This document shows, in pieces, positions 5,985 through 33,625 of a DNA stretch of 34,747 nucleotides. Under the pieces are notes generated by a model. It was not told where the DNA came from and searched no databases. It was given only the letters and a program-made list of their open reading frames with translations. A program made the translations under genes and the position numbers. The stretch spans positions 1-34,747 of IMG/VR virus record IMGVR_UViG_3300010148_005964. One strand, given 5' to 3'. The stretch comes from a virus. Position 1 is the stretch's first letter; each line of letters starts with the position of its first letter.

Positions 5985-6322
5985 TATAAAGTTATTGTTT
6001 TTGTTTCTCCTGTTGATGTATCTGTCATGAAAAAATCTTTAACATTAAATGCTTTATCATCAATCCAATAATCATATGGAGGTTTGCCCATCATTAATTT
6101 TGTTCTTTTTACACCCCAATCATTAAGTTGTTTTTCTGTTAATTTAGAGTGATCTTTGCCACTATTACCACCTCTAGCAGTCCAGTAAATTATCTTATGG
6201 CCAGCATCAAACAATTGATTAAAAAAATGTATCCTATCTTTTATCGGCCTTGCTTGTTCGTAAGGAGTATCTTGACTATCATGTGTACAAATTGTGCCGT
6301 CAATGTCTACAATATATTTCAT
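5984..6322 (-). CDS. HAD-superfamily phosphatase, probably for a sugar phosphate
   Basis: A compact 112-residue HAD protein. Motif I is VDIDGTICT (residues ~5-13, nucleophile Asp6 and acid/base Asp8). Motif II is IIYWTARG (Thr near residue 48). The C-terminal motif PPYDYWIDDKA supplies the Asp pair that holds Mg. The short cap-less form resembles small HAD phosphatases found in capsule and LPS gene clusters. It follows the HldE-type nucleotidyltransferase with a 4-base overlap, so the likely job is removal of the 7-phosphate from heptose 1,7-bisphosphate, the step done by GmhB in bacteria. GmhB proper has a longer sequence and a different motif I, so the substrate is an inference from neighbours. 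Confidence 0.78.
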   Translation of the reverse strand: MKYIVDIDGTICTHDSQDTPYEQARPIKDRIHFFNQLFDAGHKIIYWTARGGNSGKDHSKLTEKQLNDWGVKRTKLMMGKPPYDYWIDDKAFNVKDFFMTDTSTGETKTITL

Positions 6323-6813
6323 TTTATTTTTTTAATTATATCGCTAGTGCTTATGTTTTCTATAAATGGTATAACTTTTAATATAGCATTACCTTTCGCT
6401 TTCATCTCTGATTTATTTAAAGAATCTTCATCATAATCGCCTCCTTTGCACCAAAAATCTGGTTGTAATTCTTTTAATTGTTTTGATACGGTTTTAGTAT
6501 TAAATATAAACACATAGTCAACAGCTTCGTGACAGGCTACTGTATAAGCTCTTTGTTTTGCTGTTATTATAGGTCTATCTTTACCCTTTATAGACTTAAC
6601 ACTTGCATCTCCATTTATACCAATAACCAATTTTGAATTTAAGCTACAGGCGTTTTTCATGGCATCTAGTAAACTAGCATGTCCTGCATGAAATAGATCA
6701 AAGCAACCATTGGCAAATATAAAAAATTTTTTAATACCACACGATTCAAGCTCTCTTGCAAAAAGCCTTTCTTGTTTGATTTCTTCAAATGATATTATTT
6801 TTCTATGTTTCAT
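6319..6813 (-). CDS. hldE: D-glycero-beta-D-manno-heptose 1-phosphate adenylyltransferase (HldE C-domain type)
   Basis: A 164-residue cytidylyltransferase-fold enzyme matching the second domain of HldE (RfaE). The HxGH signature lies in GCFDLFHAGHASLLDA. NGDASVKSIKGKDRP follows, then AVDYVFIF, CKGGDYDED and ISTSDIIKKIK at the end, each matching HldE in order. It would transfer AMP from ATP to D,D-heptose 1-phosphate, giving ADP-D,D-heptose in the cytoplasm. Bacterial HldE is usually a fusion; here the kinase is a separate upstream gene overlapping by 4 bases (ATGA). A nucleotide other than ATP cannot be excluded by eye, but the KGGDY and C-terminal pattern favour the HldE family. Confidence 0.85.
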   Translation of the reverse strand: MKHRKIISFEEIKQERLFARELESCGIKKFFIFANGCFDLFHAGHASLLDAMKNACSLNSKLVIGINGDASVKSIKGKDRPIITAKQRAYTVACHEAVDYVFIFNTKTVSKQLKELQPDFWCKGGDYDEDSLNKSEMKAKGNAILKVIPFIENISTSDIIKKIK

Positions 6814-7556
6814 ATTGTAGCAACACCCTTCTTTTTAATAACCCTTTGGCAGCAAGATTGAGCGTATGTGATTGAGCATTTAATATCTTTAGTGGCTGTA
6901 TATGAATAAGCAAATGCAGCTAAAAATGTATCCCCTGCCCCTGAGACATCTCTAACTTCTGAAGGATCGTTAAGTTTATATTCTTGACCATTGTACCAAC
7001 AGCCTTTTGCTCCTTTTGTTACTATCAAGTTTTCTCCTTGATGGGTCCACCCATTCTCTTTGTATTCTTTATCGTTTATTTTAATAAAAGTAAACAAATT
7101 AGCCCATTCTTGATTATATTTTTTCTTGGTATCTAAAAAACTTAACTTACTTCTACTCGCAATCTCTCTTAAGTTAGAATCCGTTAAGTAACCTTTATTA
7201 TAATCTGAAACAATAACAGCATCAAGTTCTTCTATATTTTCTGGTATCTTATTACAAGGTTCATACTTGTCTGTATCAACCCTTAAAAACATTTGATTTG
7301 ATTCTAAATCGATATATCTAGTTTTAGCCCCAATGCATAAATTAGTATTTAATGATATGTCATTTTCAAAAGGCATATCTTTAAAAGTCTCCTTATCCAT
7401 GGCTCGCATATTTTCATAAACATTTGCGGCCATACCTAAATTACTTGTATTATAATCTAGAGTAAATACAGGAACAGGAGCTTCTGGACATAGGCGATTA
7501 GCTTTACCATAGCAAAACTCATCTTTACAAGTTTCACCTATAACTAAAAATTTCAT
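6810..7556 (-). CDS. hldE: D-glycero-beta-D-manno-heptose-7-phosphate kinase (HldE N-domain type, PfkB family)
   Basis: A 248-residue PfkB-family kinase. The N-terminus has the strand MKFLVIGETCKDEF and LCPEAPVPVF, which matches the R-x-x-PEAPVPV substrate loop of HldE. VSDYNKGYL lies mid-protein. The C-terminal motif DVSGAGDTFLAAFAY holds the catalytic Asp and anion hole. It is shorter than the ~320-residue kinase half of bacterial HldE, chiefly in the middle lid region, and the usual PGGAANV reads LGMAANV. It would phosphorylate the C1 of heptose 7-phosphate. It overlaps the cupin gene upstream and the nucleotidyltransferase downstream by 4 bases each (ATGA), so the products are likely made in step. 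Confidence 0.82.
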   Translation of the reverse strand: MKFLVIGETCKDEFCYGKANRLCPEAPVPVFTLDYNTSNLGMAANVYENMRAMDKETFKDMPFENDISLNTNLCIGAKTRYIDLESNQMFLRVDTDKYEPCNKIPENIEELDAVIVSDYNKGYLTDSNLREIASRSKLSFLDTKKKYNQEWANLFTFIKINDKEYKENGWTHQGENLIVTKGAKGCWYNGQEYKLNDPSEVRDVSGAGDTFLAAFAYSYTATKDIKCSITYAQSCCQRVIKKKGVATI

Positions 7557-7927
7557 TTCTGAGATGAGCCTTTTTCTAGCCTATAAGAATCTTCATTAAA
7601 ATGTTGAGTACTAACCTCAAACACATCTGCATCTTCTAGAGCTGTCAGTTTGTGTGGTATGCAGGGTTTTAAATGAACAGTGTCGCCTTCTATTAACTCC
7701 TTTTCAAAACGTTCAGAGTTCTCTAAATTAAAATATTCTAGCTTAAGCTTACCCCTAGTAACACACCAAGTTTCTTCCTTTTGTATATGATAATGCATAG
7801 AGAAAGAAGACCCTTTTTTAAAGCGCAAAATTTTACCACAATATTTATAATTGTTGGTAATCCAAAGCTCTTCTCCCCAACCCTTGGGGTGAGCTTCTAA
7901 TCGACTAAAAATAGGCAACATACTCAT
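7553..7927 (-). CDS. Cupin protein resembling type II mannose-6-phosphate isomerase domain
   Basis: A 124-residue single-domain cupin. WGEELWITNNYKYCGKIL resembles the start of the ManC/ManA C-terminal cupin. HYHIQKEETWCVTRG gives the first metal motif (H-x-H with downstream Glu), and PCIPHKL the second-motif His. In bacteria this domain isomerises fructose 6-phosphate and mannose 6-phosphate. Here it leads the heptose operon, so it may act on a sugar phosphate of that route, or feed mannose to the Gmd pathway at 25.8 kb; sequence does not decide. ATG at 7927 sits 7 bases after a consensus -10 box. Confidence 0.7.
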   Translation of the reverse strand: MSMLPIFSRLEAHPKGWGEELWITNNYKYCGKILRFKKGSSFSMHYHIQKEETWCVTRGKLKLEYFNLENSERFEKELIEGDTVHLKPCIPHKLTALEDADVFEVSTQHFNEDSYRLEKGSSQK

Positions 7928-13121: not shown

Positions 13122-13320
13122 TTTCCTCAGAAGGGTTTACTCTTTTTGTGAGTTCTTCCAAAGCTGAGAGTTTCTCCTCATTAGACATTTTTGCGATATT
13201 TTTATCGACTTCCGAAATAGCGATGTTGTGCATTATATTTACAGCCTCCGCTACCGTGATTCTGGATACCATTTCTGATACTAAAAGAGCTTTCAACTCT
13301 TCTTGCTTTTCGGCATCCAT
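13099..13320 (-). CDS. Small helical hypothetical protein
   Basis: A 73-residue protein, nearly all helix (EELKALLVSEMVSRITVAEA, later EEKLSALEELTKRV). It overlaps the next gene by 23 bases and touches the previous gene at its start (shared base, TAATG). Amphipathic helices suggest a protein-binding role. Not recognised. Confidence 0.58.
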   Translation of the reverse strand: MDAEKQEELKALLVSEMVSRITVAEAVNIMHNIAISEVDKNIAKMSNEEKLSALEELTKRVNPSEENESNLEI

Positions 13321-13535
13321 TATTCAGTTTCCACACTTTGATAAATTCTTAAATCAGGCTGCTTAGTGCCTTCTTCTTTGAATTTATTTTTAAAAATGAC
13401 GATTTTCTGCTTTGAACCATCAGATAAAGCAATCTCCCCACTATAGAAAGATTGATTTTTACCATCGACTCTCCAAAGAGCGCCTAATTCACGCTTTTTC
13501 CATTCGTCGTTATTTTTTGTATTTGTATTACTCAT
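13320..13535 (-). CDS. Small conserved phage-type protein (beta-rich, DUF736-like)
   Basis: A 71-residue protein starting ATG 13535. The core reads KKRELGALWRVDGKN, YSGEIALSDGSKQKIVIFKN and KQPDLRIYQS. It resembles small DUF736-like proteins found in phages and bacteria, whose form is strand, turn, I-F-x-N-x-F-K, then P-D-x-R-I-Y. The start overlaps the upstream stop by 8 bases (ATGAGTAA). A longer frame to 13595 exists, but its extra N-terminus lies wholly inside the 57-residue gene and lacks the family pattern. Function unknown. Confidence 0.66.
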   Translation of the reverse strand: MSNTNTKNNDEWKKRELGALWRVDGKNQSFYSGEIALSDGSKQKIVIFKNKFKEEGTKQPDLRIYQSVETE

Positions 13536-13701
13536 GAGTTTTATAATTGAATTTTCCTTCGACACTTTTCCAAAAGGCAGAAGGCCCAAGCGCATGATAG
13601 CGCCCTTTTAGTTTCTTGTAAAGTTTTTTTAATACAGGATTTTGATTTTTTGGATGATAACCAACTAATTTCCTTATTCTCTTAGCTACTGAGCCACTCA
13701 T
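13528..13701 (-). CDS. Small basic protein
   Basis: A 57-residue frame from ATG 13701 to TAA 13528 with a Lys/Arg-rich sequence (MSGSVAKRIRKLVGYHPKNQ, then LKKLYKKLKGRYH). It has a conserved-looking aromatic end (ALGPSAFWKSVEGKFNY). It overlaps the next gene by ATGAGTAA, the same coupling seen elsewhere in this operon. The MSGSVAK-x-(I/L)R start recurs in marine-phage small proteins. The strong basic charge suggests nucleic-acid or ribosome contact. A weak TTGAAA / GATCAT pair ends 5 bases before its ATG. Confidence 0.62.
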   Translation of the reverse strand: MSGSVAKRIRKLVGYHPKNQNPVLKKLYKKLKGRYHALGPSAFWKSVEGKFNYKTHE

Positions 13702-13723: not shown

Positions 13724-16045
13724 TTATTTTTCAACAAAAAGTTTTATTTTATCATTGCCATTAGAAATACAATCAGAAATAAAAGGTTTTATGTTTGATG
13801 ATACTAGCTCATTTAAGCTTTTAATTGGTGAAATATCGTTTTTTATCTGTTGTACATTTTTATAAATGTATTTAACAGTAAAATCCAAGTAAACGCCGTT
13901 ATCCTCTAGGTTATTTTTAATATTTCTAAGTTTGTTCCATAAAATTCTACGCAAATCTTTTATTTTTAATTTATTTAAAATGAAAGAATTCTTAATCAAA
14001 GAATAAATATCTTTATCTATGAGAGGATCGTCATTACGAGATCTTTCTATGTTAAATCCAAGTTGGCTTGTGTGAGATAAACAACTAGTTAAAAATATTT
14101 TACAATTAGAAAAATCAGCAACATCGCCGTTATTCATTTGTATCTTACCTTCTTTCAATATTTGATTGAATATAGGTACAGCGGTTTTATCGATCTTATG
14201 AAAATCATCTATAATTAAAACACTGTTTGGGGTTATAACAATCTTCTCGCATATTGAAGTATTATTACCCTGAGAAGAAGCGATCTTGTGAGGAGAAAAA
14301 TTATCTGAAAAATGTACACCATTGTAAGACAAGACGTTTACCCCATGTTTTTGCAAGGAATCCTCTAGTAGTTCACAAAATAAAGACTTTCCACTAGAGT
14401 CTTCCCCACTTACTACATAGCACTCAGGAGTCGAAAATTTTCTAGTGGTTCTAACCCCAATGCTACTTAAAATTATCTCGTGTTTCAATTCATCTAGTAC
14501 ATCTGCTTGTCCAATAAAAGACCTGCTAACGCAATCAAAAACTTTATTTATTTTATTCTTTTTGCTTAGAGGGTTAATTTTGCGATCAAAAAATTCTTTT
14601 AAGTGAAACCGAGAGACTTCAGGTTTGTTTTTTGTTTCATCAGACTCAACCCACTTCTCTAAACTTTTGTTAAGCTTTTCTATTAAGGCTGAATGATCTT
14701 TTTCTGGATGAAGCGCAGATTCAACTATTTCCGTCTGCATTTCTTTTATAGATGGTTTTACATCCCAAAATGCAACTTTAGCTTGAGCGCCACAATGATC
14801 TATAACATCAATAGCTTTATCTGGATAATACTTGTTTGGAGTATATTTCTCGCAATACTTAATTATGTTATTTAAAAATTGATCACTGTACTTTACGCCG
14901 TGAAATTCTTCATAGTAAGAAACAATAGTTGGTAAAATTTCTTCCATTTGAAATTTAGAAGGTTCTTTTACTACAACTCTTTCAAATCTTCTATCCAGCG
15001 CTGTATCTTTCTTTATTGTGTTTGTATATTCATTGACGGTTGTAGCTCCAATACAACTTATTGTTCCTCTAGCTAGCTCTGGCTTTAGGATATTAGATGC
15101 TTCTAGAGAGTTGTTATTCGCACCTCCTGCACCAATCAATGTGTGTATTTCATCGACAAATAAAACTAAATTTGTATACTTTTTAGCCTCGGTTACAAAG
15201 TCTTCTAACCGTTTTTCAAATTGACCTCTATATTCAGTACCAGCAACCATACTAGATAAACTGACAGAGTATATCACCTTGTTGGCTATAAGCTCTGGAG
15301 CGTCTCCGCTAACAATTCTTGTGGCTAACCCCTCTACTAATGAAGTTTTACCTGTTCCAGCAGGACCAACCAATATTGCATTTGGTTTCTTTTTCCGACA
15401 CAAAATAGTCGCAAGCTCATCAATCTTGCCGTCATAATCTACAATTTTATCAAACCCACCTGTAGCAGCTTTTGCATTTAAATTTTCTGCAAACTGAGAC
15501 AATATTTCATTATTGTCAAACATATCGATCCAATGATCAGGAGTTTCTTCAAGTTCTTTTAGTTTTGACTCTATTTTCTCGGCTTCAAAATCTTTTATAA
15601 CCAAGGCGCTCTCAGCGACTACACCAAACCTCACACTGTCAGCCTCATCCACCCCTTCTGGAAAAGAATCTTTTAAAACCCTAGGCATAAACTCCTCATC
15701 AAAGAAATTCATCAAAATCACCTCTGGTGGAATATAGTCTAAAGAATAAGTGTCCCTACAAAGTTTCTCGCAAAACTTCAAAAATTTTCTAACATCCGTT
15801 TTAAACTTATTAGATACGTTTTTATTTTTTCTTTTTTTATGTAAAATATTTCTAGAGTCTTTTACCAATTCATCATTATCAATCCCAATTTTTTTGAATA
15901 TAGAAGTACAAGATAAACTCAAATCACTAATAAAACAGTGGAAAAATATGTCTAGATCAACACCATTCCTTTCTAGGATTACAGATAAATCTTTTGATTT
16001 ATGAATAATACCTTCAATATGGGGGGTAAAGGGTAACTGAATCAT
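13724..16045 (-). CDS. Clp-type AAA+ unfoldase (ClpA/ClpC family) with degenerate second ring
   Basis: A 773-residue double-AAA+ protein. Residues ~1-160 fit a Clp N-domain. D1 (about 170-430) has Walker A GPAGTGKT (227-234), Walker B LFVDE (295-299), pore loop EYRGQFEKRL with Tyr272, and arginine fingers in DRRFERV (351-357). A short middle segment follows rather than a full ClpB M-domain. D2 (from ~505) has Walker A GEDSSGKS (547-554). Its Walker B reads IIDD (Asp for the catalytic Glu), there is no GYVG pore loop, and NKLK stands where Arg-finger NRID is expected. LGF at 662-664 aligns with the ClpP-docking loop (IGL/VGF/IGF). It lies 3 bases after the polymerase gene. It probably redirects host ClpP. 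Confidence 0.82.
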   Translation of the reverse strand: MIQLPFTPHIEGIIHKSKDLSVILERNGVDLDIFFHCFISDLSLSCTSIFKKIGIDNDELVKDSRNILHKKRKNKNVSNKFKTDVRKFLKFCEKLCRDTYSLDYIPPEVILMNFFDEEFMPRVLKDSFPEGVDEADSVRFGVVAESALVIKDFEAEKIESKLKELEETPDHWIDMFDNNEILSQFAENLNAKAATGGFDKIVDYDGKIDELATILCRKKKPNAILVGPAGTGKTSLVEGLATRIVSGDAPELIANKVIYSVSLSSMVAGTEYRGQFEKRLEDFVTEAKKYTNLVLFVDEIHTLIGAGGANNNSLEASNILKPELARGTISCIGATTVNEYTNTIKKDTALDRRFERVVVKEPSKFQMEEILPTIVSYYEEFHGVKYSDQFLNNIIKYCEKYTPNKYYPDKAIDVIDHCGAQAKVAFWDVKPSIKEMQTEIVESALHPEKDHSALIEKLNKSLEKWVESDETKNKPEVSRFHLKEFFDRKINPLSKKNKINKVFDCVSRSFIGQADVLDELKHEIILSSIGVRTTRKFSTPECYVVSGEDSSGKSLFCELLEDSLQKHGVNVLSYNGVHFSDNFSPHKIASSQGNNTSICEKIVITPNSVLIIDDFHKIDKTAVPIFNQILKEGKIQMNNGDVADFSNCKIFLTSCLSHTSQLGFNIERSRNDDPLIDKDIYSLIKNSFILNKLKIKDLRRILWNKLRNIKNNLEDNGVYLDFTVKYIYKNVQQIKNDISPIKSLNELVSSNIKPFISDCISNGNDKIKLFVEK

Positions 16046-16048
16046 TTA

Positions 16049-18640
16049 TTATTTAACCGCTTTTTTAACTTGTCTTTTATACATGTAGATTTCTGGCCCT
16101 TTTATTTCGATATTAGATACAAAAAATGCACTATGGGATTTTGTGCCTCTAACAAAGATAACGTCAGTTTTCTTTAATTTGTTTTCTCTCATGAAATCAC
16201 TGAATTTAAAATCTTGAGCGCCATCAATAAATAACATATCCAAGTTGCATGTTTTATCAGATACTAAAATTTTCATATATTTATTACCAGCTTGAGATTC
16301 TTTGGTAAAGAAATCTTTGACCACACAAATAGAAGTAAAAGTATCTTTATTTTCTAAAGAAGATAAATCACATAGATCGTATAAGTTATCCATGTCTTCA
16401 CTCTCGTCAAAACATTCTTTAAGATCATAAGAATATGAAAAACCTAACAGGTTATTTTCAAAAGTCCAACTAGCAAACTTTTCATGATTTTTATTTTTAA
16501 AATAAATGTCTCTATATCTGTCGTACTTAGAGCGAAAAGTATTAAACCTCTTTTCTGTCATTAGGATTTTACTATCATCTGCAACCACTCTATTCAAAAC
16601 CGCTTCTTGTATTGCTTTTAAAATATCAAACCCTAATCTTGACCCCAGTTTTGTAAAATTTCTTTTCTCTCTATCTGTTAAAAGATTGAAAGATTGAGCT
16701 TCCAAAACTAATTTACTTCTACTAGCACGTTTTACATTGTTATTTTCTGATTCATCCATTAAACCTGCCTGTATTAAAGATGATAGAACATTAATAGGTA
16801 TTCCGCACTCTTTCGCAGCTATAAATATTTCATACTTGCTATTAAATTTAAAGCCACGAAAATCAATCAAGCTTTTTAAATTCTTATCTGAAACACCTTT
16901 TATTGACCTTAAGCCATATCTGATATTAGTTCCTTCAATTTTAAAATTAAAATCAGAATTGTATAAACAAGGAGGTAACAACTTTATATTAAAATAATCA
17001 AGTTCTTGACTAACCTTATTTACAACCTCTAAAGGATCTGGCTCAAATTCAGAACATTCTAAAATAGATAAAAAGAATTCTTGTGGGTATTTATATTTTA
17101 AATAAACTGTTTTCGCCGCAAGATCCGCGTAAGCGAAACTATGAGACTTATTAAACGAATAGTGAGAAGCCGCATCTAAAGACATCCAGTAGAAGTCTGC
17201 TACATGTTCTCCTAATTTTTTTTCTTTCGCCGCTTTATATATCTTGTCTTTCCATTTTGGCATTTCATTAACTTTTTTCTTGCCAACTATCCTTCTTAAG
17301 ACTTCCGCTTCTTCAAGGGTAAATCCAAAAACTTTATTCGCAATTTGCATCAATTGCTCTTGATATAAAATAACACTTTTCGACCACGATAAAATTTCAT
17401 CCAAGTCGTCTTGCACCCTCAGTTTTAAATTGTGTTTTTTATTACTAATATATGTAACTCTTTTTGTAAGGCCAGCAGGTCTAGCTAACGCAACTACGTC
17501 AGAAAGTTCATTTAAATCTTTTGGTTTAACATCCTTGCAAACTCTAAAGTTAGTTTCCGCAGAAATTTGAAATAATCCCGCTGGGTGATTTAAGTCTTTT
17601 AGTATTTCATATATAAAAGGTTCATTAGGATCAATATCATCAATATCTATTTGAACTTTCTCACAACATTTATTTGCAATTGTTAAAGTCCTTAAGCCCA
17701 AGATGTCAAACTTCACCATTAAATCTGCAACATCATCCATGTTGTAAGCTGTAATTAACTCACCGTCTTTTGTTTTTTGAAGAGGAACAACATTAGATAT
17801 TTTTTGAGAACAAATTGCAATACCAGATGGGTGAACTCCTGTATTTTTAGGCAACCCTTCTACTTTTAGAGCGTGTTCAAAAGTTTTTTTATGCCCTTTC
17901 ACCCATTCCCCAAAAGATTGACTTTCCTCCGCCGCTTTTTGCAAAGGTAAAACCAAACCATGGAGTTTAGGTATTGAATCTGAAATTTTCATAGCTCTCT
18001 CTTCAGACTGTTCATGAAAGTATTTTACGGCTTCTTTAATACAAAGTTTTGAACTAAATGTATTAAGCGTTAAAATTTTCGCTGTTTTTCCTTCGTGTTG
18101 TTTTTCAATATAAGAAATAACTTTATGTCTCTCATCATAAGAGATATCAGAATCAACATCAGGAAGAAGACTCCCTACCAAAAATTCTTTCCCTCTTGGG
18201 TCTTTAACTTTTTTTGCTCTAGATTTAGAGACGAATCTTTCAAAATATAAATCATGGGGTATGGGATCTATGTTCGTCACACCCAATAAATATAATACCA
18301 AACTTCCTGCGGCTGAACCTCTACCTGCACCTGTCGGTATTTCGTTTGCGTGACAGAAGTTTAATACATCCCAGTTTAAAAGGATATAATCTATAAAGCC
18401 TAATTCATCTAAAACATCAATCTCATGCTTGCATCTATCATAGTAAGTTTTTTTATTAGAAAACTTATTTATGCCTTTTTCTAACAAACCTTTTCTACAA
18501 AGATTTTTTATAACATCTAAGTTTGAACTCTCATGATTCAACCCAAGATCATTTAATACATCTTTACTTATAGAGGTTTTGGGAAGCTCTACTCCTGCTG
18601 GCTCACAATCATCATATACTGTACAATCATCAAAAATCAT
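16049..18640 (-). CDS. dnaE: DNA polymerase III alpha-type polymerase core (DnaE, without PHP)
   Basis: An 863-residue C-family polymerase lacking the N-terminal PHP domain. Conserved sites are GAGRGSAAGS (residues 104-113), PDVDSD (160-165, catalytic Asp161 and Asp163), TGVHPSGIAI (268-276) and KFDILGLRTLT (310-320, third catalytic Asp312). Tandem helix-hairpin-helix DNA contacts are likely after residue ~560, with an OB-fold near the end (FTSICVVKDFF to VRGTKSH). No clear QxxLF clamp-binding motif was found. It extends primers in phage DNA synthesis. Its ATG overlaps the exonuclease stop by 4 bases, and the missing PHP domain is encoded two genes upstream. Confidence 0.92.
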   Translation of the reverse strand: MIFDDCTVYDDCEPAGVELPKTSISKDVLNDLGLNHESSNLDVIKNLCRKGLLEKGINKFSNKKTYYDRCKHEIDVLDELGFIDYILLNWDVLNFCHANEIPTGAGRGSAAGSLVLYLLGVTNIDPIPHDLYFERFVSKSRAKKVKDPRGKEFLVGSLLPDVDSDISYDERHKVISYIEKQHEGKTAKILTLNTFSSKLCIKEAVKYFHEQSEERAMKISDSIPKLHGLVLPLQKAAEESQSFGEWVKGHKKTFEHALKVEGLPKNTGVHPSGIAICSQKISNVVPLQKTKDGELITAYNMDDVADLMVKFDILGLRTLTIANKCCEKVQIDIDDIDPNEPFIYEILKDLNHPAGLFQISAETNFRVCKDVKPKDLNELSDVVALARPAGLTKRVTYISNKKHNLKLRVQDDLDEILSWSKSVILYQEQLMQIANKVFGFTLEEAEVLRRIVGKKKVNEMPKWKDKIYKAAKEKKLGEHVADFYWMSLDAASHYSFNKSHSFAYADLAAKTVYLKYKYPQEFFLSILECSEFEPDPLEVVNKVSQELDYFNIKLLPPCLYNSDFNFKIEGTNIRYGLRSIKGVSDKNLKSLIDFRGFKFNSKYEIFIAAKECGIPINVLSSLIQAGLMDESENNNVKRASRSKLVLEAQSFNLLTDREKRNFTKLGSRLGFDILKAIQEAVLNRVVADDSKILMTEKRFNTFRSKYDRYRDIYFKNKNHEKFASWTFENNLLGFSYSYDLKECFDESEDMDNLYDLCDLSSLENKDTFTSICVVKDFFTKESQAGNKYMKILVSDKTCNLDMLFIDGAQDFKFSDFMRENKLKKTDVIFVRGTKSHSAFFVSNIEIKGPEIYMYKRQVKKAVK

Positions 18641-19251
18641 AAACTCATTCTCTTCTTTAATTCACAAAAAATCTCAAAACACATTTTTATGTCGTAAAGA
18701 GCATCGTGTAATTTAGAATGATCATGATTAATGTCAAAGAATTTTAATAGTGTGCCTTGAGAAACTTTGGCTTTCAAGCTTCTATCATTAATTAACTTAT
18801 ACTGCCAGCTCAATAAATTACCTTTAGGTTTGTCCAAGTTTTCTCTATAAGCTTTAGCGAAAGCCCTAGTATCGTAGATTCTTGATATATAAGAGTAATC
18901 TGGTTCTTGTCCTAGCATTTTTTGTAGAATAGCCAACATATAAACGTCAAAACCTAACAAGTTTTGCCCAACAATTATATATTGAGGGTCATACAAGTAA
19001 GGTTCAAATTTTGACCAAACTTCAGAAAGAGATTTTGATTTTTTCTCATACTTTTTCCAATCAAACCCTGTTAGTTTTTTTACAACCTCTGGGATGTTTA
19101 GATTTTTATGAGATATAAACTCATCATGTTCTTCCAAAATTTTTTCTCCTTGGCAAACGATCCAAGATAACTGCCAAGTTTTAGAAGAGTGTAAATTTAA
19201 CCCTTCTGTTTCTGTATCAATAACTAAATATTTCTGATTATAAGGTAACAT
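18637..19251 (-). CDS. DEDDh 3'-5' proofreading exonuclease (DnaQ-like)
   Basis: A 204-residue RNase-T/DnaQ-fold exonuclease. The four metal-binding acids are in order: VIDTETEG (Asp12, Glu14), LLGFDVYML (Asp102) and HDALYDIKM (His182, Asp187). The spacing is normal for DnaQ/epsilon. No Zn or BRCT appendage is present, and the protein ends shortly after motif III, so it lacks the epsilon C-terminal segment that binds alpha in E. coli. It lies between the PHP and polymerase genes and overlaps both (14 and 4 bases), which strongly suggests that its product assembles with them as the proofreading part of the replicase. Confidence 0.9.
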   Translation of the reverse strand: MLPYNQKYLVIDTETEGLNLHSSKTWQLSWIVCQGEKILEEHDEFISHKNLNIPEVVKKLTGFDWKKYEKKSKSLSEVWSKFEPYLYDPQYIIVGQNLLGFDVYMLAILQKMLGQEPDYSYISRIYDTRAFAKAYRENLDKPKGNLLSWQYKLINDRSLKAKVSQGTLLKFFDINHDHSKLHDALYDIKMCFEIFCELKKRMSL

Positions 19252-19939
19252 TTTTTTCTAAAAAGGATTCAAAGCAAAAGTCATCTGAACAAAAGTCATT
19301 TAAGTTAGGCTTACTGAAAGTTGGTATTCTACCCTGCCGCCTAGAACATACAGCTTTGTACATTTGAAAAGCTTGGAAATCCTCTCTATTCCTGTAGTAG
19401 ATAGTTTGGGTTTTTTGAGTTTTTATATTAAGATCTTTTAACTTTCGTTTTATTTGAAAATCAAATGGATGGCTATTGTCTTCCTCCATATAAAAATGAT
19501 CATATTTTTCTAAGCCTAGCTCACATAAACCAAAATTAAATATATTTTTAAAAATATATGAGTCGTAAAAAGGAACCCCTATTTTAATGTCTTCTAATTC
19601 AGAATCATGTATATTTGATATATTTAAAACCTCAAGAGGACTAAGTTTACATTTGCTATAAAGATTCCTTAAGTTATTTATACCTTTATTGTTTTTAGCA
19701 AAAAAAACTAATTTGCTAGACCCTTCGGATTCACTTTGAAAAACTGGCATTCTTATTCCATAAACCATTGGAATATCAGCATGAAGAAATGCTGAATTTG
19801 CAGCCCTAAATCCGTAAAAGTTATCTTCAACAAGTGTTACTTTTTTAAGTTTATTTGATTGAGCTATATCTATTATATCCTCAACCCTTAAAAGAGATTT
19901 ACCAATACTGTAACTTGTTTTAAAGAGTGGAATTATCAC
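19238..19939 (-). CDS. Stand-alone PHP domain of DnaE (catalytic residues lost)
   Basis: A 233-residue protein matching the first ~230 residues of DnaE. It has SLLRVEDIIDIAQSNKLKKV, FYGFRAANSAFLHADIPMVY, GIRMPVF and LVFFAKNNKGINNLRNLYS, ending near FQAFQMYKAVCSRR, where DnaE passes from PHP to palm. The metal-binding His-x-His start of active PHP domains reads FKTSYS, and the T-D-H/E site reads VEDNF, so it is probably structural rather than catalytic. The start is GTG 19939, 9 bases after the nuclease stop. It should bind the separately encoded polymerase core. Another fold is unlikely given the co-linear match and the missing PHP in the downstream gene. Confidence 0.75.
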   Translation of the reverse strand: MIIPLFKTSYSIGKSLLRVEDIIDIAQSNKLKKVTLVEDNFYGFRAANSAFLHADIPMVYGIRMPVFQSESEGSSKLVFFAKNNKGINNLRNLYSKCKLSPLEVLNISNIHDSELEDIKIGVPFYDSYIFKNIFNFGLCELGLEKYDHFYMEEDNSHPFDFQIKRKLKDLNIKTQKTQTIYYRNREDFQAFQMYKAVCSRRQGRIPTFSKPNLNDFCSDDFCFESFLEKNVTL

Positions 19940-25762: not shown

Positions 25763-25790
25763 AGTATAGCCTACTTAGATGTATTTGCAA
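25763..25790 (-). promoter_or_regulatory. Promoter of the replication operon
   Basis: Minus strand: TTGCAA (25790-25785), 16-base spacer, TATACT (25768-25763), then ATTAGT and ATG at 25756. It overlaps the 3' end of the gmd gene. About 12 kb of coupled minus-strand genes follow without another clear promoter before hldD and the spannin genes. The 6-base gap to the start codon again leaves no leader. Confidence 0.55.
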
Positions 25791-26844
25791 TATTTAAATC
25801 ATTTTTAACCATTTTTGTAACCAACCCTATAAAGTTTGTTTTTGGCTCCCACTCTAGGTCTGTTCGCGCTCTAGAAGAATCACCGTACAGTAAATCAACT
25901 TCGGCTGGTCTGTAGAACTTGTCGCTAATTTCGACAATTAGATCGTCTCCATGATAATATTTTTCATGAACCCCCTTTCCTTCCCATCTACACATAGATC
26001 TATGAAATCCCGCTATATGGAAAGCTTCCTCAACAAATTCTCTAATAGTATGAGTTTCGTCAGAAGAAAGGATATATTCTTTTGGTATATTATTGTTTTC
26101 TATATACATATCAAACCTATCTTGATTTAACATTCTCCAAATACCGTCCATAAAATCTTCAGAATCACTCCAATCTCTTTTAGAATCTACATTACCAAGA
26201 ACTAAAGGCTTGAAATTTTCTTGATTCGCGTACTGATGAGAAATTCTAGCGACATTCTTTGTTATCTTCCTTGTAACAAACTCCTCCCCCCTTCTAGTTC
26301 CTTCGTGATTAAATAACCACCCTTGGATTGCATATAGTTTATAAGAGTCTCTATAAACTTTTACTAAATGTCTCGCAGAACATTTGGAAGCTCCATATGG
26401 GCTTCTTGGCCTCAAGGGGTGAATTTCGCTCTGAGGTGTACAAAGTACATCCCCAAACTCTTCTGAAGACCCTGCGTTATAGTATCTACAATCGGGACAG
26501 TGTTTTTTTATTGCTTCAAGTTGATTAAGTACAGCCAAAGCATTAGTTTCCATATGCTGCGCTGGCATTTTCCAACTAGTTCCTACAAATGAATTTGCCG
26601 CAAAATTTATAAAATAGTCTGGTTTGTGTTCTGCTAAAACAGAATCAGTATTCTGTACATCTGTTACGTCCAAGTCTATTAAAAAAAATCTATCCTCATT
26701 TTTTAAATGATCTATGTTTTCATGATTTTTGACACTAAGCCTTCTAGCCCCACCAATTATCGTATGATCGGTTTCTCTCAATAGGTAATCCACCATATTG
26801 CTACCATCTTGCCCCGTAACACCTGTAATTATTACTTTTTTCAT
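25771..26844 (-). CDS. gmd: GDP-mannose 4,6-dehydratase
   Basis: A 357-residue SDR enzyme of the Gmd family. The cofactor motif is VIITGVTGQDGSNMVDYLL. NAGSSEEFGDV, SPYGASKCSARHL (catalytic Tyr-x-x-x-Lys), FNHEGTRRGEEFVTRKI, LGNVDSKRDWSDSEDFMDGI and FYRPAEVDLLYGDSSRART are diagnostic for Gmd. It makes GDP-4-keto-6-deoxymannose, the precursor of GDP-fucose, rhamnose and perosamine. I take ATG 26844 as the start, giving a 4-base overlap (ATGA) with the upstream gene; a TTG three codons earlier is in frame but lies inside that gene. No GMER (fucose) partner is seen, while an aminotransferase is, so perosamine is the likelier branch. Confidence 0.93.
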   Translation of the reverse strand: MKKVIITGVTGQDGSNMVDYLLRETDHTIIGGARRLSVKNHENIDHLKNEDRFFLIDLDVTDVQNTDSVLAEHKPDYFINFAANSFVGTSWKMPAQHMETNALAVLNQLEAIKKHCPDCRYYNAGSSEEFGDVLCTPQSEIHPLRPRSPYGASKCSARHLVKVYRDSYKLYAIQGWLFNHEGTRRGEEFVTRKITKNVARISHQYANQENFKPLVLGNVDSKRDWSDSEDFMDGIWRMLNQDRFDMYIENNNIPKEYILSSDETHTIREFVEEAFHIAGFHRSMCRWEGKGVHEKYYHGDDLIVEISDKFYRPAEVDLLYGDSSRARTDLEWEPKTNFIGLVTKMVKNDLNIANTSK

Positions 26845-27671
26845 TTTATCCAATCTTCTATATTTTTAGTAGGCTCCCAGCCTAAAATTTCTTTAGCTAA
26901 GGATAGATCACACAATGTGTCTTGAGCTTCTCCTTCTCTATCTTCTTTATAAATAATGTTATTGTACCCATACATTTCTACAATTTCTTTGACAGAAAAA
27001 TTATTTCCCCTTCCAAGTTCAAAAACTTCTCCCCAAGCTTGTTTTTTAATAATTAAAATTAAAGCGTCTACTATATCTTCTACATGAGTAAAATCTCTAC
27101 GCTTAGACCCATCACCAAAAATATAAAAAGGCTTTCCTTCTCTTTTTGCTTTATCCCATATACCTATCAAGGTGGCATTACCCTCTTCTAGTTGATGAGG
27201 ACCATAAACATTATAAAATCTAGCTATAGATCCTTTAAGTTCAAAAATTTTTTGATATAGTTTAATCGTCTCTTCTGACAAGTCTTTTGTAAAAGTATAA
27301 GGGTTTTTGTATTTTCCTGAATGATGGGAAGAAGTACCTGCAAAAACTAAAGGTATTTTTAATTCTCTACATAATTCACAAACATAAAAAGTACCAATTA
27401 CGTTGTTTCTAGCAAATAAAATAGGATCAGAAAAAGAAGGCTGTATTCTCGCAGATGCCGCCAAATGTACTACAGCTTCAACCCCTTCTACTATGGTTTT
27501 ATTTATGCCATAAGCTATATCAGAATTAAAATAAGTTACTTCATCTATCTCGTTTTCTTTTCTACCAGTAGAATAATTATCTATACTTATAACCTCGTGA
27601 CCATCTTGTATGAGTTTTTTACATAAGTTGTAACCTACGAACCCTGTTCCTCCTGTAACTAATAATTTCAT
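26841..27671 (-). CDS. NDP-sugar epimerase/dehydratase (extended SDR)
   Basis: A 276-residue extended SDR. KLLVTGGTGFVGYNLCKKLI binds NAD. VVHLAASARIQPSFSDP, GTSSHHSG, YTFTKDLSEE (Tyr-x-x-x-Lys), ARFYNVYGPHQ and KRRDFTHVEDIVDAL match UDP-glucose 4-epimerase-like enzymes. The product cannot be named from sequence. It overlaps gmd and the GT2 gene by 4 bases each (ATGA), so it is in the same transcript and may supply a second sugar of the same glycan. Confidence 0.82.
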   Translation of the reverse strand: MKLLVTGGTGFVGYNLCKKLIQDGHEVISIDNYSTGRKENEIDEVTYFNSDIAYGINKTIVEGVEAVVHLAASARIQPSFSDPILFARNNVIGTFYVCELCRELKIPLVFAGTSSHHSGKYKNPYTFTKDLSEETIKLYQKIFELKGSIARFYNVYGPHQLEEGNATLIGIWDKAKREGKPFYIFGDGSKRRDFTHVEDIVDALILIIKKQAWGEVFELGRGNNFSVKEIVEMYGYNNIIYKEDREGEAQDTLCDLSLAKEILGWEPTKNIEDWIK

Positions 27672-28834
27672 TTATTTAAATGTTGAAAGTTTTTTTTATC
27701 ATTAATTATTATAACCATTGACTCTCCTAAAGAAATATTATTTGGACAGCTATGTATGTAAGTGGACATGTTAAAAATTTTATCGTAGTCTTTTCCATTA
27801 AAACCTCTTGCATCTATATAAATTAAAGTTTGATGATATTTTAAATCGCTAATTTTTTTAATTCTATCATTTAAATTGAATAAAGTTTTAGGCTGTTCTT
27901 CCTCTATATACTCTTCTATTTGATCTTTACTACAATCACTATAAAAAACGCTGCAAAGAGGCTCTAGAGCGATTAGGTGTTTTGGAGAGCAATTTCTGCA
28001 AACTATACCAATATCAAATTTAGCTTTTATAATGGGATGCAAAAGTTCTGTTGTAATTACTTCTGACCCCCATTTGCGGAAAAAATTTCTTTCATTTTTT
28101 AGGTTTGTGTATTTCCACTCTGGAGAATTAACCCCTGTTGCACCGCCTGAATGTTTATTGAATCTACTACCTCTAGATGCAAAGTGATAAACTAACCCTT
28201 CCCAAGTTTGAATTAGTTTATAGCCATTTAAATAAAATCTACAAAATAAATCGCTATCTTCTCTACTCTGTGGTGCAAAAAGCTCATCATGACCACCTAT
28301 ATCAAAAAAATCTGATTTGTACATACACCAAGGGGCAAACATCCCTTTGGTTGTTAAATCTTTATGTTTTGGTTTATAGTCATTCTGTAACCATTCTACA
28401 AATTTATTATAGTCAAAATTTTCAACCTCTGTGCCTAAATCTACTAAAACTTTTTCTGGACCCTCTGGATATATAGGAGGTTCAGCCCTAGTAGCACAAA
28501 CAACTGTACCCTTTTTCAAATGTTTTAAAACATGATCATCTAAATCTGGCGCTGCGACCATATCTGCATGAAAGGCCATTATTATATCTGTTGGAGCCAT
28601 CTCTATGCCTTTGTCAAACATACCAACTATTCCAACTCTTTCTGGCCCTTTATTTTTGTAAGTTAACAAAAATTCATCATTTAGGGAATCAACCCATTCT
28701 GAAGTTCCATCAATAGAAGCATCATCTAGAACTAGTATAAAATGATTCGTTTTTAATTTTTTAATAGAATCATACGATACTTTTAATAGCTCCAAATTAT
28801 TTCTAGTGGGTATTACAAAGGTTATTTTTTCCAT
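27668..28834 (-). CDS. Family 2 glycosyltransferase with C-terminal extension
   Basis: A 388-residue protein. A GT-A domain fills residues ~1-260: ITFVIPTRNNLELL, LDDASIDGTSEW (sugar-nucleotide binding), FHADMVAAPDLDD and SREDSDLFCRFY (ED-type acceptor/catalytic motif). The last ~110 residues (KAKFDIGIVCRNCSPKHL on) are a separate domain with a Rossmann-like look, possibly a second GT or regulatory domain. It would add one sugar to a surface glycan. It overlaps the FkbM methyltransferase start by 13 bases. Confidence 0.82.
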   Translation of the reverse strand: MEKITFVIPTRNNLELLKVSYDSIKKLKTNHFILVLDDASIDGTSEWVDSLNDEFLLTYKNKGPERVGIVGMFDKGIEMAPTDIIMAFHADMVAAPDLDDHVLKHLKKGTVVCATRAEPPIYPEGPEKVLVDLGTEVENFDYNKFVEWLQNDYKPKHKDLTTKGMFAPWCMYKSDFFDIGGHDELFAPQSREDSDLFCRFYLNGYKLIQTWEGLVYHFASRGSRFNKHSGGATGVNSPEWKYTNLKNERNFFRKWGSEVITTELLHPIIKAKFDIGIVCRNCSPKHLIALEPLCSVFYSDCSKDQIEEYIEEEQPKTLFNLNDRIKKISDLKYHQTLIYIDARGFNGKDYDKIFNMSTYIHSCPNNISLGESMVIIINDKKNFQHLNK

Positions 28835-29559
28835 ACTTTTTTCAAGATTTTAGAATCTTTGTGAAGCAAAATTAAATTATGACACCATTCTCTTGGAGTT
28901 TTGTTGGTTTCTGGATTAATAGTATAATAAGAAAATTCGCTACAAAACTCTTTTATTTTATCTTCGGTTTCAGGAAACCATTCTATCATTATATTTGGTT
29001 TATTTTTTACAATTATTTCTTGTAATTCCATAAGGCAATCTATATCAGACCCCTCCGTATCAACCTTAATAAAGTTTAAATTTTCAAGTTCTATTTTTAA
29101 GTTTTCGCTGAAATCTTTCCAACAAAGACATTTGAATTTTCTTTCGCTGTTCCAAGATTCTTGTAAGGATATTTTGTTTTTTAAACCGCCATTTCTTTCT
29201 TTTTCATCCCAAACAAAATCTAACATACCTGACTCTTCTGATATTGCAAATTCATTCAATGAAGCTTTGAGGTTATTTTGTTCACAAACTATTTTTAGTT
29301 TTTGAAATTCTTCAGGATTAGGCTCAAAACATATAAGGCTTTTAATTCTTTCTTTAAATGGAACCAACTCTCTCACAGAGTCTCCATTTCTAGCTCCAAT
29401 ATCAACATAATGAATATCACCACTTGGAAGAAAAGGTGATATTAAAGAATGATCGTAATATAACTGATTTCTTTCTTTAAAATAACAAGATTCTTCATCC
29501 ACAAATTGAATAATTTTGTGGCCTCTAATATAAAATTTTGCAAGTAATTGCTTATTCAT
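28822..29559 (-). CDS. FkbM-family SAM-dependent methyltransferase
   Basis: A 245-residue protein with YVDIGARNGDSV (SAM-binding glycine loop), ICFEPNPEEFQKL (motif II Glu), FIKVDTEGSDIDCLMEL and PNIMIEWFPETE, which together are the FkbM signature. FkbM enzymes O-methylate sugars or polyketides. Beside glycosyltransferases and NDP-sugar genes it most likely methylates a glycan hydroxyl. It overlaps the GT2 gene downstream by 13 bases and starts 11 bases after the next glycosyltransferase. Confidence 0.84.
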   Translation of the reverse strand: MNKQLLAKFYIRGHKIIQFVDEESCYFKERNQLYYDHSLISPFLPSGDIHYVDIGARNGDSVRELVPFKERIKSLICFEPNPEEFQKLKIVCEQNNLKASLNEFAISEESGMLDFVWDEKERNGGLKNKISLQESWNSERKFKCLCWKDFSENLKIELENLNFIKVDTEGSDIDCLMELQEIIVKNKPNIMIEWFPETEDKIKEFCSEFSYYTINPETNKTPREWCHNLILLHKDSKILKKVWKK

Positions 29560-29570
29560 TTACTAGTAAG

Positions 29571-30470
29571 TTAGTCTAATTTAATTTCTTTCAAAGCATC
29601 AATAAACCTTGTAGCCATAGCTGATTTACTATAAATTTCACAAAAAGACCTTCTATCTTGTAAATCAACAGGATCTTTTGCTTTTCTATGCAGCATATCT
29701 ACCTTGTCTATAAAATCTGATAAGTTTCCATCTTTGAAATAAAAAGCCCTGTCTCCAAAATAATCTTTACCTCCTTGATACTTTGAATCTGATAATAAAA
29801 CATTTTTACCGTGATAGTAGCCCTCCAATAAACTCAATCCACCTGTAGAGGCTTCAGAATATTCACAAACTAAAAAAGAACAATTTAAAATTGCTTGTTT
29901 ATATTCATCAAAACTTAACGAGTGTTCTGGCCTCATTTCATTTATATTCAACTTTTCACAAGCTTTTCTTAAGAATCCATAATTGGAATCTTTGTAAGCC
30001 CTTAAGGGGTGAAAAATAAAATCTTTATTTTCTAATAAGGACTCATTTTTTTTATCTTCAAATGATTCAAAGAAACATTTTATAACTTTTGTTTTTTGAT
30101 CGCTGCTATAAAGCTCATTAACTCTAAGGCCAACCTCATTTGAAGGAACCCATATTTCATCATAAAAAGGAAAACCTATAATTGAATATCCTTCGACCCA
30201 AGGATATAAATCCCAAAGATACAATATTCTTTTCATATGAGGATATTTTACCGCAAAACTTTTGTAAGCGCCTTGAGTATAATGCTCTGAACCACTTATA
30301 CATAAAATAATATCACAAGAATTTATATCTTCTTCACTAAAACTTTCTAGGTTAGTTATAATGCTAATACCTTTTGTTTTTATGCAATTTAAAACTTTAT
30401 AAGCTATTCTGCATTCAGTGCTTTCTGTGTTTTTTTTGACATCTTCTGGAACTATTACAAAAATTTTCAC
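29571..30470 (-). CDS. GT-B-fold glycosyltransferase (GT4-like)
   Basis: A 299-residue protein. The N-terminal half begins KIFVIVPEDVKKNTES and has ILYLWDLYPWVEG. The C-terminal half has CEYSEASTGGLSLLEGYYHG and NVLLSDSKYQGGKDYFGDRA, the Glu-rich donor-binding pattern of GT4 enzymes. It is short for the family, with a reduced first domain. It would transfer a sugar from an NDP donor to a glycan. Donor and linkage are unknown. Confidence 0.75.
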   Translation of the reverse strand: MKIFVIVPEDVKKNTESTECRIAYKVLNCIKTKGISIITNLESFSEEDINSCDIILCISGSEHYTQGAYKSFAVKYPHMKRILYLWDLYPWVEGYSIIGFPFYDEIWVPSNEVGLRVNELYSSDQKTKVIKCFFESFEDKKNESLLENKDFIFHPLRAYKDSNYGFLRKACEKLNINEMRPEHSLSFDEYKQAILNCSFLVCEYSEASTGGLSLLEGYYHGKNVLLSDSKYQGGKDYFGDRAFYFKDGNLSDFIDKVDMLHRKAKDPVDLQDRRSFCEIYSKSAMATRFIDALKEIKLD

Positions 30471-30475
30471 AATAT

Positions 30476-31099
30476 TTAGTCATTTTCAAAATTTATATAC
30501 TTTTTAACACCATTATTATTTATATAATATGCAGACTCTTTACCTTCAAAAGTTAGCCCTCTAATATATTTACTAAGATCTTTTATTTTATTTAAATCTT
30601 TTCTGTAATAAATAGCGGCTTTTGATTCATCTTGTTTTACTGCGTCATATTCACCGTTCAGTAATAGATAAAACCAATCCTTAAACATTTTAAACATTAC
30701 TTTGTTGCCTTTTTCAAAAAGACTTTGAGCCGTGTCAACATTTCTATCAACCGCAAATGATCTAATTTCTATTATATCTCCAGTGTCTATGCCTTCATCA
30801 ATCAGATGTAAGGTTATTCCGCATTTGTTGTCACCATTTATCAAAGTCCAACTATATGCTCCAGCTCCTCTATATTCAGGTAAAACAGCAGGATGAAAAT
30901 TAAAACAAGTTCTTTCTTTTATTAAAAATGGGGTTATCAACTTGTCGTATAGAACTGATATAAAAATATCACAATCTTCTTTACAGTCTGTTATTTGAAA
31001 ACCTTTGGGGATATTTTTTTTCGCCCAATCTATACACTCATAGCCAATGTCTCTAGATGTAGCTATATGTACTTTTTTACCAATCCCACTTGCTGCCAT
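30476..31099 (-). CDS. Sugar N-formyltransferase (formyl-THF dependent)
   Basis: A 207-residue formyltransferase-fold enzyme. NFHPAVLPEYRGAGAYSWTL carries the catalytic Asn and His (Asn67, His69 from this start) and the PxxRG loop. GITLHLIDEGIDTGDII carries the catalytic Asp (Asp105). It lacks the tRNA-binding C-terminal domain of Met-tRNA formyltransferase, so a sugar amine is the likely acceptor, as in ArnA, VioF or WbkC. Next to Gmd and a Per-like aminotransferase it could N-formylate GDP-perosamine. I use ATG 31099; a TTG at 31129 is in frame but lies deeper inside the upstream SDR gene. Overlap with that gene is about 23 bases. Confidence 0.82.
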   Translation of the reverse strand: MAASGIGKKVHIATSRDIGYECIDWAKKNIPKGFQITDCKEDCDIFISVLYDKLITPFLIKERTCFNFHPAVLPEYRGAGAYSWTLINGDNKCGITLHLIDEGIDTGDIIEIRSFAVDRNVDTAQSLFEKGNKVMFKMFKDWFYLLLNGEYDAVKQDESKAAIYYRKDLNKIKDLSKYIRGLTFEGKESAYYINNNGVKKYINFEND

Positions 31100-32039
31100 T
31101 TTCGTGGAAATATTTGATTGTTTTTTCAAGCGCCTCCTCTAAAGAAATACTAGGTCGGCTTTCTATAACATTATTTAGTTTGGTATTATCTGACTGTAAA
31201 TGCCAAATCTCCCAAGGACGAATACGAGAATCTTCTGTTTTTATAATTGTTTCTTCATGCCCCATAAGTTTACCAATAAGTTCGGCTAATTCATATATCC
31301 TGATGCCGTCCTCACTTCCCATATTATAAACCTCTCCAAATTGACCTTTTTCAAGAAGTTCTACAGCCATTTTGGCTGCGTCTCCAGCGTATTGAAAATC
31401 TCTAAAAGAATTGTTTCCTAAATTGACAACATTGCTTTTAGCTAATTGAGAAATAATCTCTGGGATAACATATTCGTGCGTTTCTCTTTCTCCCACACAA
31501 TTAAATTGTCTTAATGAAATTGCTGGAACATTAGCTTCTCTCCATCTTACCTGAACTAAACCATCAGCAGCTAATTTTGAGACACCATACGTAGAATGAG
31601 CTTCAACAGCATCGGTCTCTTTTATTTTTCCTTTCATGTCCCCGTATATTTCTGCTGAAGAAACTTGGAGAATAGCCTTTATTTTAGATTTTTGGCAAGC
31701 ATTTAAAACTTTTAGTACAGCAGTTGCATTAATATCAAAAAAGTGCATTGGTCTTTCAAAACACTCAGGAATATATGGTTCAGCAGCGTAGTTAAAAACA
31801 TAATCAATGTTTTCTTTTTCAAAAATTCTTACAAGTTCGCTTTCTTCGTCTCTTATATCTGCCCATATAAACTTCGCTTTTTCGTGAATGTTTTTTGTTT
31901 TACCTGTAATTAAATTATCTAAAACTGTTACATTACACCCTCTTTCATCTATTAAATAATCAACGAGATGTGAGCCTATAAATCCAGCTCCACCTATAAC
32001 ACAAACATTGCAGTTTTTTATTTCTCTATTTTCTTTCAT
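31077..32039 (-). CDS. NDP-sugar 4,6-dehydratase / epimerase (LegB- or RmlB-like SDR)
   Basis: A 320-residue extended SDR. VCVIGGAGFIGSHLVDYL binds NAD. FNYAAEPYIPECFERP, VSSAEIYGD, STYGVSKLAADGL (Tyr-x-x-x-Lys), LRQFNCVGERETHEYVIPEI and FRDFQYAGDAAKM follow the order of NDP-sugar 4,6-dehydratases such as LegB. The substrate is not determined. It would supply another deoxy or epimeric sugar for the same surface glycan. A possible promoter (TAGATT / TATAAT) lies just upstream of its ATG. Confidence 0.83.
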   Translation of the reverse strand: MKENREIKNCNVCVIGGAGFIGSHLVDYLIDERGCNVTVLDNLITGKTKNIHEKAKFIWADIRDEESELVRIFEKENIDYVFNYAAEPYIPECFERPMHFFDINATAVLKVLNACQKSKIKAILQVSSAEIYGDMKGKIKETDAVEAHSTYGVSKLAADGLVQVRWREANVPAISLRQFNCVGERETHEYVIPEIISQLAKSNVVNLGNNSFRDFQYAGDAAKMAVELLEKGQFGEVYNMGSEDGIRIYELAELIGKLMGHEETIIKTEDSRIRPWEIWHLQSDNTKLNNVIESRPSISLEEALEKTIKYFHENGSKWDW

Positions 32040-32050
32040 AATATTATTTT

Positions 32051-32078
32051 ATTATAACCAATATAAAAAATAAATCTA
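32051..32078 (-). promoter_or_regulatory. Possible internal promoter of the sugar cluster
   Basis: Minus strand: TAGATT (32078-32073), 16-base spacer, perfect TATAAT (32056-32051), then 11 bases to ATG 32039. The -35 is weak (three of six to consensus), but the -10 is exact and the 36-base gap is the largest in this cluster. It would uncouple the last seven sugar genes from those upstream. Confidence 0.35.
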
Positions 32079-32567
32079 CTTAAATGCAACCAATAGAAAA
32101 TCTCTAGAAGGGTTATGATGGATGTAAGCTTCTTTCTCTTCTACTTTAGAGAATCCTGCATTGTATAAAAGAGGACTTAAAGTTGCTGGACACCAACACC
32201 ATTTATGACCAACTGTGGTTTCATCTCCAAAAAGTTGAATAGCACCGTTGCTTCCATTTATGATATTTGGGTCATCACTAGACAATATAGTCTGGCATAT
32301 TGATTTTAAATTGCCAGTTTCTATCACAAGTTTACCGTTTTTATTCAACCATTTATACCACTTTTTTAAAAGAGGTTGCATTTCATGTAACCCTATATAC
32401 ATAGCAAAATGAGACAATAAAATTTCTTCTACTGTATTTTCCTGCCAATCCATAGTTAAAATATCTGCCTCGTGATCAACTTCCATATACCCATGGTACA
32501 TTGATTTGTTATCAATATTTATATAACCTTGTCTATAGTCTTGGCCTGAAGCTAAATTAAGTTTCAT
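32076..32567 (-). CDS. SAM-dependent methyltransferase-like protein
   Basis: A 163-residue class I methyltransferase-like protein. KLNLASGQDYRQGYINID replaces the usual E/DxGxGxG motif. EILLSHFAMYIGLHEMQPLL and YKWLNKNGKLVIETGNL match the family of small methyltransferases beside sugar clusters. A WCWCPATLSPLLYNAGF segment supplies the acceptor-side loop. Substrate unknown; a sugar or lipid-linked glycan is likely. Its ATG overlaps the aminotransferase stop by 11 bases. Confidence 0.75.
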   Translation of the reverse strand: MKLNLASGQDYRQGYINIDNKSMYHGYMEVDHEADILTMDWQENTVEEILLSHFAMYIGLHEMQPLLKKWYKWLNKNGKLVIETGNLKSICQTILSSDDPNIINGSNGAIQLFGDETTVGHKWCWCPATLSPLLYNAGFSKVEEKEAYIHHNPSRDFLLVAFK

Positions 32568-33621: not shown

Positions 33622-33625
33622 ATTA

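Follow-up and report, generated by a model that had tools for sequence, protein, structure and literature searches.

The locus described here raises the question of what a phage could do with a double-ring Clp unfoldase in which one ring seems unable to hydrolyse ATP and carries, in that same ring, a tripeptide at the position used for docking to ClpP. The gene lies in a 34.7-kb IMG/VR virus record, the whole of which is referred to as the window. The gene and its first domain are located as follows:

13724..16045, minus strand: ClpA-like double-ring AAA+ unfoldase gene, 773 aa (open reading frame and translation)
15536..16045, minus strand: divergent N-terminal domain resembling a Clp N-domain, residues 1-170 (AF2 alignment to the ClpC N-domain)

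Family assignment, structure model and relatives

The 773-aa protein is matched by the NCBIfam ClpA model (E 5.7e-100, residues 155-764) and by the PHROG 4871 'ATP-dependent protease' HMM (E 1.7e-99, residues 44-722), and its score against the ClpA equivalog TIGR02639, 335.6 bits, is far under the curated cut-off of 993 bits. As judged from its sequence, it is an Hsp100 of the ClpA type. An AF2 monomer model built from a 98-sequence alignment reached a mean pLDDT of 81.9 (a first run with eight close orthologs had given a poor model, pLDDT 52), and in the PDB it is most similar to ClpC and ClpA chains, several of which come from ClpP complexes. The N-terminal domain has no match to Pfam Clp_N (PF02861); the modelled chain can be aligned with the ClpC N-domain coordinates from its first residues onward.

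The protein also contains a segment between its rings that ClpA lacks:

14621..14761, minus strand: short helical middle insert, about residues 429-475, which lengthens the D1-D2 spacing by ~39 residues relative to ClpA

From D1 to the D2 P-loop there are 140 residues, vs 101 in E. coli ClpA, and the ~39 additional ones are also extra relative to the jumbo phage proteins that were checked. The model places helices at 431-444 and 452-472, and the insert is possibly a short ClpC-like middle domain, which could bind an adaptor. ClpB, by comparison, is recognized by a middle domain of ~120 residues and by the absence of the ClpP tripeptide; its inter-ring distance is 219 residues, and the phage protein has the tripeptide, as LGF.

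Scans of viral contigs returned 53 relatives (47-93% identity, nearly all full length), and the ortholog set used below comprises 41 distinct marine viral proteins, with D2 identity down to 34%. These sequences belong to a widespread clade of uncultured marine phages carrying a ClpA-related unfoldase. Among the long contigs, the nearest relative measures 109 kb and comes from a tailed phage; it encodes a terminase, a tape measure protein, a ribonucleotide reductase, PhoH and a sigma-70 region 2 protein. Its ribonucleotide reductase is nearest to those of alphaproteobacterial phages (58-63%), a kinship that hints weakly at a host among marine Alphaproteobacteria, and a terminase comparison returned no informative relative. 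Rhodobacter phage RcXuper was considered as a relative and set aside: it has an annotated DNA polymerase I and no annotated Clp gene, and looks like a different lineage. The 109-kb relative (IMGVR_UViG_3300020439_000004) also encodes, at 13992-14927, a RuvB-like/clamp-loader-like AAA+ protein (Pfam RuvB_N and RuvB_C; PHROG clamp loader).

Motifs of the two AAA+ rings

The rings, and the two nucleotide-pocket motifs of the second, map to these positions:

14711..15511, minus strand: D1 AAA+ ring domain, residues 179-445, catalytic motifs all intact (motif alignment)
13727..14560, minus strand: D2 AAA+ ring domain, residues 496-773, with the P-loop retained and the catalytic residues missing (alignment)
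14384..14407, minus strand: D2 P-loop GEDSSGKS, residues 547-554 (G...GK[ST] in 41/41 orthologs)
14204..14209, minus strand: D2 Walker B Asp613-Asp614, Asp in place of the catalytic Glu (41/41 orthologs)

D1 is 41% identical to D1 of E. coli ClpA and has the P-loop GPAGTGKT (227-234), the pore residue Tyr272, the Walker B motif VLFVDE (294-299, with E299), a sensor 1 Thr and RRF at 352-354 (RR352-353). A sequence-only reading of this DNA had described D1 as intact in Walker A and B, pore Tyr and arginine fingers, and all of these are present and aligned with their counterparts in bacterial ClpA/C. All 41 orthologs have intact D1 motifs, and constraint is strongest in this domain, with a mean entropy of 0.52 bit vs 1.43 in D2 and 118 invariant positions out of 261 (D2: 27 out of 278).

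D2 is only 15% identical to D2 of E. coli ClpA. Its Walker B motif reads VLIIDD, with D614 in place of Glu, the GYVG pore-loop segment is deleted and the arginine-finger position, 683, is Leu. The alignment thereby agrees with the sequence-only reading, which had proposed a D2 that keeps the P-loop, has Asp for the Walker B Glu and lacks both GYVG and the arginine finger; it adds two losses absent from that reading, C655 for the sensor-1 Asn and K742 for the sensor-2 Arg. The same picture holds across the clade when it is compared with 57 bacterial ClpA/ClpC-type proteins with an intact D2. The arginine-finger Arg and the sensor-2 Arg occur in 0/41 orthologs vs 57/57 bacterial proteins, Walker B is DD in 41/41 vs DE in 57/57, and the sensor-1 Asn survives in 2/41 vs 57/57; the GYVG loop is missing from every ortholog.

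What is kept in D2 is as uniform as what is lost. The Gly, Gly and Lys of the P-loop are found in 41/41 orthologs with synonymous variation, and Asp614 is encoded by GAT in 26 and by GAC in 15. Nucleotide binding is therefore probably retained, as these P-loop residues and the DD pair are invariant at the protein level. Codon usage at the D2 motifs and at the tripeptide described below indicates selection on the protein. Given the losses and retentions shared by the 41 orthologs and this codon-level selection, we read D2 as a domain that is not drifting, from which catalysis has been removed and in which the nucleotide pocket and a predicted docking loop have been kept. Recent pseudogene decay was ruled out, since the D2 losses are common to all 41 orthologs, the frames are intact and the motifs are under selection.

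On present knowledge of AAA+ catalysis, it is very unlikely that such a D2 acts as a motor. Replacement of Glu by Asp could leave slow hydrolysis, and if Asp614 supported it, or if a non-canonical residue substituted for the finger, both rings would work in an altered form. Selection on the P-loop and the Asp-Asp pair, with synonymous variation, is compatible with that explanation. However, a ring without finger Arg, sensor-2 Arg or GYVG in any ortholog, and without sensor-1 Asn in 39 of them, leaves it highly improbable.

Among the phage proteins inspected, the inactivated D2 is confined to this clade. It was ruled out as a general trait of phage ClpA by 14 other phage ClpA-like proteins whose D2 is intact, with DE, GYVG, Asn, finger Arg and GAR (RaK2, PBECO4, SCTP-2, Atu_ph07, VnaP, Vibrio 2.275, XaC1, GAP32, Hallingskeid, Serratia BF and four huge uncultured phages). 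The ClpA-like proteins of jumbo and huge phages (RaK2, PBECO4, GAP32, SCTP-2, Agrobacterium Atu_ph07; PHROG 4871) are likewise phage-encoded and of ClpA type, but their D2 is fully intact and several adjoin virion genes and not a DNA polymerase. In a D1 tree, the 41 proteins form one clade with a long stem, inside the ClpA side, and the ClpA of Salicola SCTP-2 is its sister (support 0.999). On the basis of this topology, the D2 change probably happened once, on the stem of the clade. Among the 80 matches listed from GTDB species genomes, no cellular ortholog with a dead D2 was found; these were ordinary ClpA/ClpC-type proteins only, at ≤35% identity.

Compared with E. coli and proteobacterial ClpA (TIGR02639), the phage protein thus shares the N-D1-D2 order, the D1 motifs and the Clp fold, and differs in its divergent N-domain, in the inter-ring insert and in the loss from D2 of the Walker B Glu, both sensors, the arginine finger and GYVG. 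ClpC and ClpE, from Gram-positives and plastids, resemble it through a V/IGF loop and a short middle insert, and ClpC is the best structural match; however, both ClpC rings are active, and the D1 tree puts the phage clade on the ClpA side.

E. coli ClpA is driven mainly by D2; its D1 has an auxiliary role and can serve as a weaker back-up motor if D2 fails (PMC9663308). The division of work proposed for the phage protein would be the reverse, and a machine powered by D1 only might, for this reason, be too weak to unfold stable proteins. By analogy, NSF offers a precedent for a D2 with an Asp-Asp Walker B that serves hexamerisation: its D2 Walker B segment is VVVDDIERL, and its D2 is named as a hexamerisation domain in a work that appears in the references of PMC6160233 (Lenzen, 1998). 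NSF/Sec18 resembles the phage protein in its working, with one hydrolysing ring and a D2 of this kind, and is not a relative at the family level; it disassembles SNAREs in eukaryotes and is without a ClpP loop.

The LGF tripeptide and its candidate partner

D2 also contains the motif on which a link to proteolysis depends:

14054..14062, minus strand: LGF tripeptide, residues 662-664, at the ClpP-docking loop position (alignment)

ClpB does not use ClpP, and in a D2 alignment with ClpA, ClpC and ClpB it has no tripeptide at this position. In the same alignment, LGF is in register with the E. coli ClpA IGL and with the [IVL]GF that bacterial relatives carry, so the earlier suggestion that it corresponds to the IGL/VGF/IGF loop proved correct column for column. 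An [ILV]GF/L-type tripeptide after D2 sensor 1 is a trait of the Hsp100 proteins that partner ClpP (ClpA, ClpC, ClpE and ClpX), and the clade has it as LGF or MGF: the first residue is M in 36 orthologs and L in 5, and G and F follow in 41/41, in register. All four Gly codons are used at Gly663 (GGC 15, GGA 11, GGT 8, GGG 7), and Phe664 is TTT in 27 and TTC in 14.

The tripeptide lies inside a hypervariable loop in which many neighbours exceed 2 bits of entropy. The chance of finding [LIVM]GF in a random 21-residue loop of D2 composition is ~1.2%; the strong evidence, at the sequence level, is the invariance in register in all 41 orthologs while neighbouring positions vary. In the AF2 model, residues ~660-669 are placed with low confidence as a coil that joins the sensor-1 strand to the following helix, where the ClpP loop is located, and the low pLDDT fits what would be expected of a mobile docking loop. 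In E. coli ClpA, the IGL loops of the D2 ring dock in the clefts of ClpP (PMC7707817).

A search of 26 distinct related contigs of up to 148 kb found no ClpP gene, and none of the 19 tested for ClpS had such a gene. The former result fits the use of host ClpP, although the contigs are mostly fragments and a phage ClpP could therefore lie elsewhere in the genome. Together with the tripeptide, it points to host ClpP as the likely partner and suggests that selected proteins are passed by the phage to the protease of its host.

The sequence-only reading had viewed the protein as a half-active adaptor ring. Its anatomy, with an active-looking D1, an inactivated D2 and the tripeptide, stands and is kept by purifying selection throughout the clade, but 'adaptor ring' is imprecise: a one-motor unfoldase with D2 as docking platform is likelier. 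A docking loop beside an inactive ring, in phages with no ClpP gene found, would also suit a cap or poison that blocks ClpP or diverts it from host ClpA and ClpX, or forms mixed hexamers with host ClpA, so that phage proteins are spared. D1 would be needless for such a function, yet nowhere is the protein better conserved than in the catalytic and pore residues of this ring, and we consider capping quite unlikely.

Gene neighbourhood and proposed function

The genes upstream of the unfoldase gene form a replication cluster:

16049..18640, minus strand: DnaE-type DNA polymerase III alpha gene, 863 aa, the upstream neighbour in 40/40 loci
18637..19251, minus strand: DnaQ-like 3'-5' exonuclease gene, same replication cluster
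19238..19939, minus strand: separate PHP-domain gene, N-terminal part of a split Pol III alpha

The end of the DnaE gene precedes the Clp ATG by 3 nt, the spacing that had been reported at the outset. DnaE is directly upstream of the Clp gene in 40/40 loci, behind the PHP and exonuclease genes, and the two frames mostly overlap (-1 to -17 nt; 0 to +6 in the closest relatives). A role of the Clp protein in replication is suggested by gene order, and this synteny is very strong.

ClpX acts on MuA, and by analogy the phage protein could be a replisome remodeller that works without proteolysis, D1 disassembling or loading fork complexes and [LM]GF binding a phage protein such as DnaE in place of ClpP. 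The conserved GF could indeed serve another partner, and both the constant DnaE neighbour, with overlapping frames in most loci, and the related contigs in which no ClpP gene was found are compatible with this. Against it, the tripeptide matches ClpP-docking loops in both register and residue classes, within a stretch that is otherwise hypervariable, and ClpB lacks it; we regard remodelling without proteolysis as unlikely.

Our preferred reading, which we hold with moderate confidence, is that of a D1-powered unfoldase of ClpA descent in which D2 binds nucleotide without hydrolysing it and serves as the docking platform for host ClpP. The divergent N-domain would take up substrates, and D1, as the sole ring competent for ATP hydrolysis, would pull them in. 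D2 would bind nucleotide through its P-loop and neither hydrolyse ATP nor grip substrate, because it has lost the arginine finger, both sensors, the Walker B Glu and the GYVG pore loop. It would form a fairly static collar that stabilizes the hexamer and offers six [LM]GF loops to the hydrophobic pockets of ClpP. The Clp gene would be co-expressed with the phage DNA polymerase, and host or phage proteins would for that reason probably be degraded or remodelled during genome replication.

Neither an inactive-ring Clp of a phage nor any ClpP-type Hsp100 with a naturally inactive peptidase-proximal ring and a conserved docking tripeptide was found in the literature searched. It is conceivable, and we propose it tentatively, that this lineage is the first among Hsp100 proteins to have its ClpP-proximal ring fixed as a non-hydrolysing docking collar and to leave unfolding to the distal D1 alone, coupled to the replisome and directing replication-phase targets to host ClpP. 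Since D2 catalysis and pore gripping are gone while the ClpP loop stays under selection, the clade is a natural experiment on whether the docked ring must hydrolyse ATP or rotate for coupling to ClpP; it also probes whether D1 alone can drive degradation. Jumbo phages are known to encode ClpA, ClpX, ClpP and ClpS (PMC7824862). Their ClpS and ClpP similarly hijack or supply Clp parts, but as adaptor or peptidase and not as a dead-ring unfoldase, and the present protein would add an unfoldase route to the exploitation of host Clp proteolysis by phages.

Other features of the window were noted. Pol III alpha is split over three consecutive genes (16049-19939, minus strand: PHP, DnaQ-like exonuclease and DnaE core), an arrangement shared by almost every related locus whose flank is long enough. 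Downstream of the Clp gene, a gene for a 91-aa protein (13320-13595, minus strand) is present in 40/40 loci; its product has no Pfam or PHROG match and could be a substrate adaptor. Finally, as judged from translations only, the regions 6319-7927 and 25771-34468 (minus strand) hold a sugar-nucleotide and surface-glycan-type gene set, which includes a cytidylyltransferase/HldE-like kinase pair, a cupin, several NAD-dependent epimerases, a formyltransferase-like protein, a DegT-like aminotransferase and glycosyltransferases, an unusual load for a phage.
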